A stretch of DNA of 62,011 bases from Campylobacterales bacterium (GTDB taxonomy: Bacteria; Campylobacterota; Campylobacteria; Campylobacterales; Hydrogenimonadaceae). The stretch lies in the NCBI GenBank assembly GCA_027081015.1, contig JALWMA010000033.1, positions 1-62,011 on the forward strand. The letters are read 5' to 3'. Under the pieces are notes generated by a model, which made no database searches, was not told the DNA's origin, and was given only the letters and a program-made list of their open reading frames with translations. Positions 42,571 to 47,280 of the stretch are shown piece by piece. The translations under genes and the position numbers were made by a program. The number at the start of each line of letters is the position of its first letter. Positions within the stretch are counted from its first letter, which is position 1.

Positions 42571-43140
42571 ATGAAAAAGAGTGGTTCGTCACTTGGAAAA
42601 TGCCCCGAATGCGGGGGAAAGATCGTCTGTCGCGGAGAGTTTTACGGCTGCGAAGGTTTTGTGAGAGGGTGTGGTTTCACCCTCTCCGTTCATTCCCTCG
42701 CCTCTATCGGCCACTATACTATAACACCGAAGCAGATGAGAAGTCTGCTGAAAGGGCCGACCAAGTTGGCGTTCAAAACTTCAAGCGGGGTGGAGCGCAT
42801 ATTCAGAGTCGAGCTTAAAAATGTCGACGGCAGATGGCGCGCATGGGTCGATTTCGAGGCCGGAAGCGAGCCGGAAGCTCTGGGAAGCTGCCCTCTGTGC
42901 GGCGGCGATGTAGTGGAGAGTCCGTTGAGCTTCGGGTGCTCCAGATGGGATGAGGGGTGCGAGTTCGCGATATTCAAAAATTCCCTTAAGCGTTTTGGCG
43001 GTAAAATGCTCGGCAAACAGAAGGCGAGAGAGCTTCTTGAAAACGGTGTCACGGAGGCGGAGATCAGGGCTTTTGACGGTTCTATGAAAAGAGTGAGGCT
43101 CCTTCTCGACACAGAATTCGGATGTAGCGTGGAGTTTTAG
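42571..43140 (+). CDS. Stand-alone protein of two topoisomerase C-terminal zinc repeats
   Basis: 189 residues made of two similar halves. Each has a zinc-finger-like CPxCGG (CPECGGKI; CPLCGGDV) with a second Cys pair (YGCEGFVRGCGF; FGCSRWDEGCEF) and a following helix-strand unit (LLKGPTKLAFKTSSG; LLENGVTEAEIRAFDGS). This is the pattern of the C-terminal repeats of type IA topoisomerases, here without the catalytic core. It may bind single-stranded DNA or partner with a topoisomerase; role unknown. Confidence 0.75.
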   Translation: MKKSGSSLGKCPECGGKIVCRGEFYGCEGFVRGCGFTLSVHSLASIGHYTITPKQMRSLLKGPTKLAFKTSSGVERIFRVELKNVDGRWRAWVDFEAGSEPEALGSCPLCGGDVVESPLSFGCSRWDEGCEFAIFKNSLKRFGGKMLGKQKARELLENGVTEAEIRAFDGSMKRVRLLLDTEFGCSVEF

Positions 43141-43820: not shown

Positions 43821-46199
43821 TTATGACATTCCAATCACCATCCTCCTAAGCTCATCCCCCTCTACAAGCTCCTCTTTCAGAAGCCTCTTTGCGATCTTCT
43901 CTATAATCTTCCACTCTCTTTCGACGACCTCCTGTGCCAGTTTCGTTCCCTTCTCTATCCAGTGGACAATCTGCGACTCCAGCTTCTCCTTGAATAGGTC
44001 ACTGTTGATGCTTTGCAGCAGCGTCTCTATGTGGACATTCGGCAGTTCATCGTCCATTCCAAACTGCGCTATGGCGCTGTAGGCATACAAAGCCGCCTCC
44101 TGCAGATCGCTGTAGGCACCCGTTTCGAGCCCCTTTCGTGGACCGAACTTCTTTATTGTAGCGACCCTGCCTGCGAGCAGAACCGCTATGTTGGCCTCTA
44201 TCTCCTCTTTTGAAAGATTCGTTTCGATGGCGTCCTGCATATACGAAACAAGCCCCAGCGCTTCGCTTCTGGGAATGACCGTAACCTGCTCTATCTCTAC
44301 ATCAGGCAGGAGCCTCAGAGATGTGACGGCGTGGGCCGCTTCGTGGTAGGCGCTCTTTTTCAGATCCTCTTCGAAGTTTTTGAAACGCTTCTTCTCCAGC
44401 TTATGGCCGTATTTTATGGTATTGATCCTATCGATCACGATCTCTTCACTCAGCCTGTCCAGACCGGCCCTGAGGGCATCCAGTGCCGCCTCTTTGGCGA
44501 TGCGTCCGAGCTCATAGCCGTTCATTCCGGACATATAGCGGATAATCCGGTCTATATCTATATCTTTTTGGTGCGGCTTCTCCATGATCTTTTCGGCAAA
44601 AAACCGGCGCGCCTCCCTGTCGAGTTCCGGCACCTCCACACTCTGGTCTATGCGCCCCGGGTGCATAAGCTCCGCCGGCACCTCCTCGATATCTCTTGCC
44701 GTGGCTATCGTGAATATATAGTCCTTCGGTTCGCTCGGCAGCCGGTCGATCATCTGCGTAAGAGTCGCGGTGGGGATAGCTGTGTAGTTCCCATCTATCA
44801 TACCTTTCGTATCCACCCCCTCCAAAACTACAAGTACAGGTGCAGCCAGGCGGGCGCGCGTAAAAACCTCTTTGACAAGAAGCTCGTCGAAAAGATCACT
44901 CTCCTGCAGATAGATATATGCAAGGCCGGCCTCTTTTGCGAAAGCTTTTACGAGCATACTCTTGCCCACTCCCTCCGGACCGTAAAGAAGCAGGCCCTTC
45001 GGCAGTGTAATGTCGAAATGTCTGAGCCCCTCTTCATCCTGAAGCAGTCTGATTATCGATCTGAGCTCCTTTTTGACCCTCAGCTGTCCGGCTACATCGC
45101 CGAAACCTATGTGCGATACGTGGATTGCGAGGCGGTCGGAGTACGGCGATTTCGGCTCCGGCCTCTCCTGCTCCTTCTCCGTGATCTTTTCCAGGATTAG
45201 CTTTGCTGTATATCCGCGCCTGCTCCGGCGCCACTCAAGCATGTAGCTGCGCTCGAACTTTACGAAATACTTTAGATCTTCAGAAAGTTCGGAATACTCT
45301 TCGAGCCGCTTTTGTGCACCCTTTGAGAGTGTGATTATGCACCTTTTGGCATCTTCGGGAGATTTCGAGACCAGGTCCGCCAGAAGTGCGGGCAGTTTGT
45401 GCGAGATCCTTTTCGCATTGAGATAGGGGGAGAAGCCGAGCAAAAATGCAAGCGCACCCAGACTGGGGTCCGAAATTTCGGTCTGCATCGTCCTTTCGGC
45501 GTTGATCTGCTCTAAGGTTCTATCCAAAACCCTTTCACAGATCTGCCACAGCGTCCTGAAATCGAGCGGATAGAAGAGAGCCAGGTCTCCTTCGCTGAAG
45601 ACCGTGAGTATATCCGCATCGAAAACCGTTACGAGGTTCCCCTCTTCGTCGGCAACGGCCTCTTTGGCGATCTGTTCGTAAAACCGCCCCTGAATCAACA
45701 GAGGATCTTCGTAATAGCCGTCTATGAAGCTTTTGTCGTACCATGAAGGGTCGTTTACGGAGAAGGTGAAGAGAAATATCGCCTGACGGTATCTGCGAAG
45801 ATCGTCGGGTGCTCCGTCGGACACGATCGAAGCGAGAAGCCGCTGGATCGAGTGGTCGGCCTTGTCTATATCTTCGAAGATTACGACTCCGTCCGGATAT
45901 CTCGATATCCACGACTCCAAAACACCTTTCGGCCCCACCAGACGCTCTATATCGTCGCTGAAAGAGAAGTCTCCCATATGCAGAATCAGCATCTCGCGCC
46001 GAAGATAGCGGCCTATTACCTTCGCGGCGAAGTTCTTCCCGCAGGCCGGTGTGCCGGCCAGTGTCACCATTCCGGCGACACCGTCGAAAATCGTGAGCCT
46101 CCCGAACCGCTCTACGGCAGACTCTATAAGCTCTATCGCCCTATCCTGCCCGAGAATCTCCCTTTTTGCATATTCTGAAAACTTTTCCATACTATTCAC
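43821..46199 (-). CDS. Soluble double-AAA+ protein with FtsH-type M41 protease domain
   Basis: 792 residues, no membrane helix. Domain 1 (about 15-160) is a Clp-like AAA+ module with altered Walker A (GTPACGKN, 49-56) and Walker B (VVIFED, 105-110). A helical region follows (about 200-350). Domain 2 (about 365-600) is FtsH-like AAA+ with an intact Walker A (GPEGVGKS, 407-414), but Walker B is LVVLEG where FtsH has FIDE, and the arginine-finger box is GRIDQ instead of GRFDR. Domain 3 is M41 with zinc motif HEAAH (619-623) and third ligand in GAYSDL (Asp 698). An active protease with a weakened ATPase is the reading. Overlaps truD by 8 bp. Confidence 0.85.
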   Translation of the reverse strand: MNSMEKFSEYAKREILGQDRAIELIESAVERFGRLTIFDGVAGMVTLAGTPACGKNFAAKVIGRYLRREMLILHMGDFSFSDDIERLVGPKGVLESWISRYPDGVVIFEDIDKADHSIQRLLASIVSDGAPDDLRRYRQAIFLFTFSVNDPSWYDKSFIDGYYEDPLLIQGRFYEQIAKEAVADEEGNLVTVFDADILTVFSEGDLALFYPLDFRTLWQICERVLDRTLEQINAERTMQTEISDPSLGALAFLLGFSPYLNAKRISHKLPALLADLVSKSPEDAKRCIITLSKGAQKRLEEYSELSEDLKYFVKFERSYMLEWRRSRRGYTAKLILEKITEKEQERPEPKSPYSDRLAIHVSHIGFGDVAGQLRVKKELRSIIRLLQDEEGLRHFDITLPKGLLLYGPEGVGKSMLVKAFAKEAGLAYIYLQESDLFDELLVKEVFTRARLAAPVLVVLEGVDTKGMIDGNYTAIPTATLTQMIDRLPSEPKDYIFTIATARDIEEVPAELMHPGRIDQSVEVPELDREARRFFAEKIMEKPHQKDIDIDRIIRYMSGMNGYELGRIAKEAALDALRAGLDRLSEEIVIDRINTIKYGHKLEKKRFKNFEEDLKKSAYHEAAHAVTSLRLLPDVEIEQVTVIPRSEALGLVSYMQDAIETNLSKEEIEANIAVLLAGRVATIKKFGPRKGLETGAYSDLQEAALYAYSAIAQFGMDDELPNVHIETLLQSINSDLFKEKLESQIVHWIEKGTKLAQEVVEREWKIIEKIAKRLLKEELVEGDELRRMVIGMS

Positions 46200-47280
46200 C
46201 CTCTCTTATCGGCCTGTTGGCGATCATCTCCAGCACCACTGTGGCATAGGAGCCTTTTGGGAGCGTGAAGTGAAGCTCGTAGTGGGCATCCTGCTCTTTG
46301 TATATCCCCTCCACATCTTCGGGCCAGATCCAGGCGTATCTGCGGCTCCCCTGCGCCGGTATATCGTGGATGAACTCCTTCTCTATCTCCCATGCAAGGC
46401 CGGTAGAGTGTTTCGCCTTTTTTCCGCACAGGAGTCCCGTAGGGCTGATTTGGCGATTTTTGAAACGGTCAGACTCCTCTGCGACGCTGTCGACGACGAA
46501 GTGCTTTCCGTGCGGGTAGTGGCTCGCCACGTCGCCCGGAAGAAGCCTGAAGAAGTGGTGCTCCCTGCGAATCTCTTTTATTAGTGCCGAGTTCCAGACA
46601 TAGAGCTCTTTCAGCTCCTTTTCAGTCAATGCGTCGAATAGTCTCGAAATCTCTATCCTCTTGCTCAGCCAGAGGTTGAAGAGGTGGGATTGATATGCGC
46701 TGATAAGAAAGTCGCGCCTCTTTCTGTCACGCATTTTCCGTTTCCCCTCTATGATCTCTTTGGCGGTTTCGAAGTTGTCGCCTTCGCGTCCGAAGCGCTG
46801 GTAACCGAAGTAGTTCGGAGAGCCGTTGAGCCTTATCCACTCCAGGAGCGAATCGATCTTTTTGGCGTCTGTGGGGTTCACTTTTTTCAGCCGTATGAAG
46901 AAACGGTTTCCCTTCAGGTGGCCTATTCGAAGCTTGTTTGCATGGAGTGTCCGCTCCAAAATTTTGATCTGCGGATGTGAGAAATCTTTCAGCCTCTCTT
47001 CATACTTTTTATGGAGCGATATATACTGAATCGTCATCGCGTCCTTGTCTTTGAGGCCTGCGTAGCCGAAATCGCGCACCCTGATTCCGAGATGGGAGCT
47101 GAGGGTTTGAAGCATCTGCCACGTAGTAAGCCCCTTTTTCCTGACTTTCAAAACGAGATGCTCCCCCTCGCCGCTGAAGTCGTAGAGGGGTATTTCGCTC
47201 ACTGTGAAATCGGCGGGCGTCTGCCTGAAATGGAAATATACTGGAGAGTGGGAGAGAGGATATAGACGATCCGGTTTCAT
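46192..47280 (-). CDS. truD: tRNA pseudouridine synthase D
   Basis: 362 residues with the TruD signatures GYAGLKDKDAMTIQ (catalytic Asp), RIGHLKGNRFFIRL and NYFGYQRFG. It converts U13 of tRNA-Glu to pseudouridine. Length is as usual for the family. The stop overlaps the start of the AAA+/M41 gene, so the two are cotranscribed, probably from a promoter in the 47281-47487 gap. Confidence 0.95.
   Translation of the reverse strand: MKPDRLYPLSHSPVYFHFRQTPADFTVSEIPLYDFSGEGEHLVLKVRKKGLTTWQMLQTLSSHLGIRVRDFGYAGLKDKDAMTIQYISLHKKYEERLKDFSHPQIKILERTLHANKLRIGHLKGNRFFIRLKKVNPTDAKKIDSLLEWIRLNGSPNYFGYQRFGREGDNFETAKEIIEGKRKMRDRKRRDFLISAYQSHLFNLWLSKRIEISRLFDALTEKELKELYVWNSALIKEIRREHHFFRLLPGDVASHYPHGKHFVVDSVAEESDRFKNRQISPTGLLCGKKAKHSTGLAWEIEKEFIHDIPAQGSRRYAWIWPEDVEGIYKEQDAHYELHFTLPKGSYATVVLEMIANRPIREGE

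Follow-up and report, generated by a model that had tools for sequence, protein, structure and literature searches.

A predicted soluble Clp-FtsH-M41 fusion protease with degenerate ATPase motifs and an intact zinc site in Campylobacterales

We analyzed the open reading frame at positions 43821-46199 of the reverse strand in the window, that is, the whole 62,011-nucleotide stretch of DNA from a Campylobacterales bacterium. The encoded protein joins a Clp-type AAA+ domain, an FtsH-type AAA+ domain, and an M41 peptidase domain in a single chain. Its residues for ATP hydrolysis and substrate gripping have been lost, its zinc site has been retained, it is under purifying selection, and no membrane anchor was found. 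Judged from these sequence features, it is probably a soluble and hexameric M41 zinc metalloprotease that would cut unfolded proteins without ATP-driven unfolding or threading.

The predicted product has 789 amino acids, from the ATG at 46190 to the stop at 43821, and all residue numbers below refer to this protein. The ATG at 46190 is most likely the real start, because a GAGAGGG motif precedes it and the genus orthologues have their first Met at the aligned position. The stop codon of truD (Pfam TruD, 3.3e-65) lies 1 nt upstream of this ATG. In the genus, truD was seen at 12 loci and lay close upstream at 9 of them, the window included; it is a probable operon partner. Orthologues with 64-89% identity were found in 12 genomes of the host genus, and five others have no full copy of the gene. 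In one genome of the genus, only a short piece of the 5′ part, broken by a stop codon, is left (G014 contig 129, 6615-6749), which is probably a recent gene loss. A 189-amino-acid protein with repeated zinc ribbons, weakly similar to the topoisomerase C-terminal repeat, is encoded at 42571-43140 of the forward strand and is conserved near the protease locus in the host genus. The gene and its domains are as follows.

46192..47280 (-), truD, next gene upstream, same strand
43824..46190 (-), whole protein, 789 aa, from the open frame and genus orthologues; stop codon at 43821-43823
45366..46190 (-), D1, Clp/Hsp100 NBD2-type AAA+ domain, residues 1-275, from sequence and fold matches
45126..45365 (-), D1-D2 connection, residues 276-355, a strand, helices, and a long beta hairpin in the predicted structure
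44409..45125 (-), D2, FtsH-type AAA+ domain with lid, residues 356-594, from profile and fold matches
43824..44378 (-), M41 zinc peptidase, residues 605-789, from the Pfam match (1.8e-28)

This order from N- to C-terminus had been proposed in the original prediction and was borne out by Pfam, sequence, and fold matches. Pfam AAA matched residues 400-521 (5.6e-19) and Peptidase_M41 matched residues 609-783 (1.8e-28; 100.1 bits against a curated cut-off of 29.9), with a weak AAA_2 match at residues 44-126 (1.1e-5, just below the cut-off). The D1 sequence matched NBD2 of Hsp104, ClpC1, and ClpB (best E-value, 5e-6), and the best Foldseek matches of its fold were NBD2 of ClpB and Skd3 (E-value of about 1e-12). 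D1 and the connection, which belongs to the fastest evolving part of the protein, were predicted with a pLDDT of 90.6 and a pTM of 0.86 when modeled alone. The best structural match of the full-length AlphaFold model was FtsH; its domains were confident individually, but their relative placement was not (pTM, 0.51). No transmembrane segment was found in the protein, the highest 19-residue hydropathy being 1.35 compared with 2.54 in FtsH of the same genome, and we predict a soluble protein without a membrane anchor. It had been proposed that a Clp-like module had replaced the membrane part of FtsH. However, no such replacement took place in the window lineage, because the intact sister form described below already carries the whole Clp-FtsH-M41 fusion.

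We then located the ATPase motifs, pore-loop sites, and zinc ligands.

46032..46055 (-), D1 Walker A, GTPACGKN; K52 kept, Thr/Ser lost (N53)
45924..45935 (-), D1 pore-loop site; GYVG reduced to GPKG, with helix 78-85 followed by helix 90-97 in the model
45870..45887 (-), D1 Walker B, VVIFED; DE changed to ED (E106-D107)
44958..44981 (-), D2 Walker A, GPEGVGKS; intact
44877..44894 (-), D2 pore loop 1 site; FVG loop gone, 6-residue deletion
44811..44831 (-), D2 Walker B, VVLEGVD; DE changed to EG (E457-G458)
44643..44663 (-), D2 Arg-finger segment, HPGRIDQ; R513 (first Arg) kept, Q516 in place of the second
44331..44345 (-), HEAAH, motif for zinc binding and catalysis, residues 616-620; H616, E617, and H620 intact
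44106..44108 (-), third zinc ligand, Asp695; intact

The GKN and ED of D1 (in place of GKT/S and DE), the LEG of D2 (in place of DE), and the intact HEAAH with its third zinc ligand were thus all present as first described. A shift of the alignment that would restore the D2 Walker B motif was ruled out, as an FtsH-only profile aligned APAIVFIDEID to APVLVVLEGVD in the same register and without a gap. In addition, the sensor-1 Asn of D2 is replaced by R499. FtsH pulls its substrates with the FVG loop and Clp D2 with the GYVG loop; in the AlphaFold models, helix runs into helix at the corresponding sites of both D1 and D2. The missing pore loops argue against threading more directly than the Walker changes do, and they, rather than the Walker boxes, are the strongest defect. 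The suggestion that both rings may bind but hardly hydrolyze ATP survives, and the missing sensor-1 and the absence of both pore loops add to its strength.

We searched 399 genomes of the host order with a profile and obtained 67 family loci, clearly separated by score from true FtsH (at least 344 bits versus at most 241 bits), and 66 of them were extracted. We built one quick tree and one careful tree of 74 rows on the AAA-M41 part, which separated the family from FtsH with full support. The 66 relatives comprise 9 of an intact type and 57 of a derived type that includes the window protein, and the derived type forms one clade (support of 100/99, with 52 of its 57 members in the careful tree). 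All nine intact members have DE and the sensor-1 Asn in D2, and six of them also have the canonical DE in D1. In D1, GKT, DE, and an aromatic loop (GYTD, GYSD, GYKN, or similar) are still present in most intact homologues; this loop is gone throughout the derived clade. Two losses are shared by all 66 members, namely that of D2 pore loop 1 (the 6-residue deletion) and that of the second Arg finger. The missing Arg finger noted at the outset is thus real, but it is not part of the decay because the intact members lack it as well.

Within the derived clade, only 8 of 57 members retain the D2 Walker B Glu, 2 of 57 the sensor-1 Asn, and 1 of 40 the D1 Walker A Thr/Ser. The D2 Walker A Lys is kept in all 57, and the first Arg finger is Arg in 39 and Lys in the remainder. 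The zinc and catalytic residues are invariant wherever they are covered (H 55/55, E 55/55, H 55/55, and D 53/53). Loss of the D2 Walker B motif was repeated, since the tree needs at least three changes of DE, and the ATPase motifs of this clade decayed repeatedly. Homologues with a canonical D2 Walker B do exist, but only among distant relatives (about 30-40% identity). DE occurs in no host-genus orthologue; it was found in six of the seven proteins of the sister group f18 (36-39% identity) and in the intact forms (about 30%). D1 itself is absent from 18 members of families f5 and f6 (L176-L190, L192, L193, and L037), mostly about 455 amino acids long, which have ED at the D2 Walker B and Lys at the Arg finger and keep the zinc site in all cases that cover it. 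Two intact-type proteins, L172 (7590-10220) and L174 (7955-10516), have canonical D2 ATPase motifs and have lost the first zinc His (YEAGH and KEAAH), which by sequence is the opposite decay within the same family. The extra N-terminal residues of L194-L197 (group g70) were considered as a counterpart of the N-terminal domain of the intact form, and they proved to be a non-homologous upstream reading frame. In each of the other families of the host order, the gene has its own stable chromosomal neighbors; no partner gene conserved across the derived-clade families was found, the neighbors being chromosomal and family-specific only.

Within the host genus, every domain gave a dN/dS of about 0.06-0.18. 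The overall value of 0.095 between the window protein and its nearest orthologue is the best one to quote, as synonymous sites are near saturation in most pairs. The large domain of D2 (median dN/dS, 0.061) is as conserved as the M41 domain (0.078), which suggests that it does more than hold a ring together.

From the losses and retentions described above, we infer a hexamer that would bind nucleotide, remain active without hydrolyzing it, and act on unfolded proteins. Nucleotide binding would persist in the P-loops of D2, and possibly in those of D1, with the retained first Arg finger reaching the site of the neighboring subunit; the D2 Walker A Lys and first Arg finger of the derived clade fit such retained binding. 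Nucleotide would serve as ring glue or a gate rather than as fuel, because the P-loop Lys and first Arg finger are kept and the hydrolysis residues and grips are gone. Neither ring has a substrate-gripping loop, and for this reason flexible or already unfolded proteins would enter the M41 chamber by diffusion, to be cut at the HEAAH/Asp site. The same genome encodes FtsH, ClpA, ClpB, ClpX, HslU, and Lon with normal motifs, so the protein is an addition to the motors of the cell and not a replacement for them.

As a counterpoint, D2 keeps its Walker A motif, and the first position of its Walker B is still acidic; slow ATP hydrolysis may be compatible with this. D2 could then act as a timer or gate, slowly hydrolyzing ATP to open and close the chamber, still without threading. 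The Walker A Lys and an Arg or Lys at the first finger in all 57 derived members would suit this reading, as would the strong conservation of D2 and the swap of DE to ED; this swap is seen in D1 and on different branches also in D2, which looks like selection for a state and not like loss. However, nearly all host-genus orthologues have Gly at the catalytic Glu and most have Arg at the sensor-1 Asn, and we consider a slow ATPase unlikely.

We also considered whether the missing motor could be supplied by a partner in mixed rings or stacks, such as FtsH of the same genome or a membrane AAA paralogue encoded on contig 138 (L051, G000 contig 138, 2847-4511). This paralogue has canonical ATPase motifs, an FtsH-type pore loop, and an M41 site that is dead (YQAAK instead of HEXXH), i.e., it is the mirror image of the window protein, and mixed complexes that include FtsH relatives with dead sites are known from FtsHi/Ycf2 (PMC9020784). 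The two families are nevertheless distant (about 30% identity), and proteins of the contig-138 type occur in most genomes of the order with or without the Clp-FtsH-M41 protein, so that their presence gives no support; we regard such a partnership as quite improbable. A role in the cell as a scaffold, chaperone, or regulator instead of a protease is more doubtful still: the loss of the first His in L172 and L174 makes a non-proteolytic role possible elsewhere in the family, but no derived-clade sequence that spans the four zinc and catalytic residues departs from them. Lastly, a gene decaying toward a pseudogene, as the degraded ATPase motifs, the five genus genomes without a full copy, and the broken fragment in G014 might suggest, is hardly credible given the full-length frames in most of the genus, the ribosome-binding motif, and the coupling to truD, and we rejected it on the dN/dS of about 0.1 and the invariant protease site.

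The preferred reading of a zinc protease without a working motor was then compared with known systems. The C-terminal half resembles FtsH (HflB, TIGR01241) in that its AAA fold is FtsH-type and leads into an M41 domain bearing HEXXH and a distal Asp, and both the profile score and these residues place it in M41 (PF01434). It scored 193 bits against the TIGR01241 equivalog cut-off of 600, and of the canonical ATPase set of FtsH only Walker A is kept, with EG at Walker B, Arg at sensor-1, and Gln at the second Arg finger. Unlike FtsH, it lacks the membrane anchor and the FVG loop and carries an extra Clp-type ring. That ring, D1, is similar in fold and sequence to D2 of Clp/Hsp100 proteins (NBD2 of ClpB, ClpC, and Skd3), but it has GKN, ED, and no GYVG loop, and it is fused to FtsH-M41, whereas Clp/Hsp100 proteins dock on ClpP or act alone.

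The closest mechanistic analogy, rather than homology, is with LonC of Meiothermus taiwanensis, a protease with a degenerate AAA module that is hexameric, binds six nucleotides without ATPase activity, and breaks down unfolded protein only (PMC3391209). LonC is of the Lon type and has a single AAA-like module, whereas the window protein is an M41 zinc protease with two, and no Lon (S16) protease domain was found among its Pfam matches. Its sequence would be compatible with the absence of ATP hydrolysis and the nucleotide binding of the LonC type, and by analogy it may be the M41 counterpart of LonC. Hexamers can be formed by the ATPase or protease domains of FtsH alone (PMC9020784). Chloroplast FtsHi proteins are also FtsH relatives with one of two activities dead (PMC9020784), but they lost HEXXH, whereas the window protein keeps the protease and lost the motors. 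FtsH ternary conflict systems share the presence of two AAA domains per chain with the N-terminal one inactive (PMC7159879). In those systems, however, both domains are FtsH-type, the second is active, and MoxR and vWA partners are present, whereas the window protein has a Clp-type D1, a degraded D2, and a fused M41. A search of openly available papers found none on an M41 protease with degenerate AAA domains.

We further examined the neighborhoods of the intact homologues. DUF4062-STAND proteins (890-1636 aa) adjoin four of them (L164, L170, L171, and L173), the neighbor in L164 (7237-17732) also having TPR; a TIR protein and a TrkA-N protein flank L170 (3-15285) as well, and NERD-helicases adjoin L034 and L020. 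Directly upstream of three intact homologues lies a small gene with a product of 180-210 aa.

G008 contig 15 3178-3660, small gene upstream of L034
L164 6649-7188, small gene upstream of the intact homologue
L167 6709-7338, small gene upstream of the intact homologue

Of 399 genomes, only three carry the small gene at near full length, and these are the ones in which it precedes the intact protease; neither Pfam nor PADLOC matched its L164 copy. In the host order, DUF4062 is rare (14 of 299 genomes) and adjoins the intact protease in three of those 14 genomes (G087, G180, and G267). The link is not general, as DUF4062 is missing from G008, which does have an intact protease. A published study describes DUF4062 as a TIR-like NADase belonging to the phage-defense system Swarozyc (PMC13174449). 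The DUF4062/STAND genes and the intact AAA+ metalloprotease genes form a candidate defense operon, and the family may derive from a phage-defense component, since several intact homologues adjoin DUF4062/STAND, TIR, or NERD-helicase genes. Among 298 genomes drawn from the phylum, matches occurred only in the host order; in a scan of a genome collection of all species, true FtsH dominated the matches listed. No record in plasmid and phage collections covered at least 80% of an intact homologue, and a plasmid or phage origin was rejected on this basis.

Taken together, we tentatively propose that Clp-FtsH-M41 fusion proteases are a soluble family previously undescribed as such, which would have originated as an ATP-driven part of phage-defense operons with DUF4062 (TIR-like NADase)/STAND genes. 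One branch would have been domesticated as a vertically inherited, housekeeping M41 equivalent of LonC, its motors and grips disabled and its zinc protease kept. M41 proteases are textbook machines that unfold and thread their substrates with ATP. A clade that lacks the ATPase chemistry and the gripping loops and has an untouched zinc site offers a natural test of the roles of AAA rings other than pulling, namely in assembly, gating, and access, and the intact sisters in the same order allow direct comparison of motor gain or loss. The intact forms also point to an unrecognized protease in defense operons.
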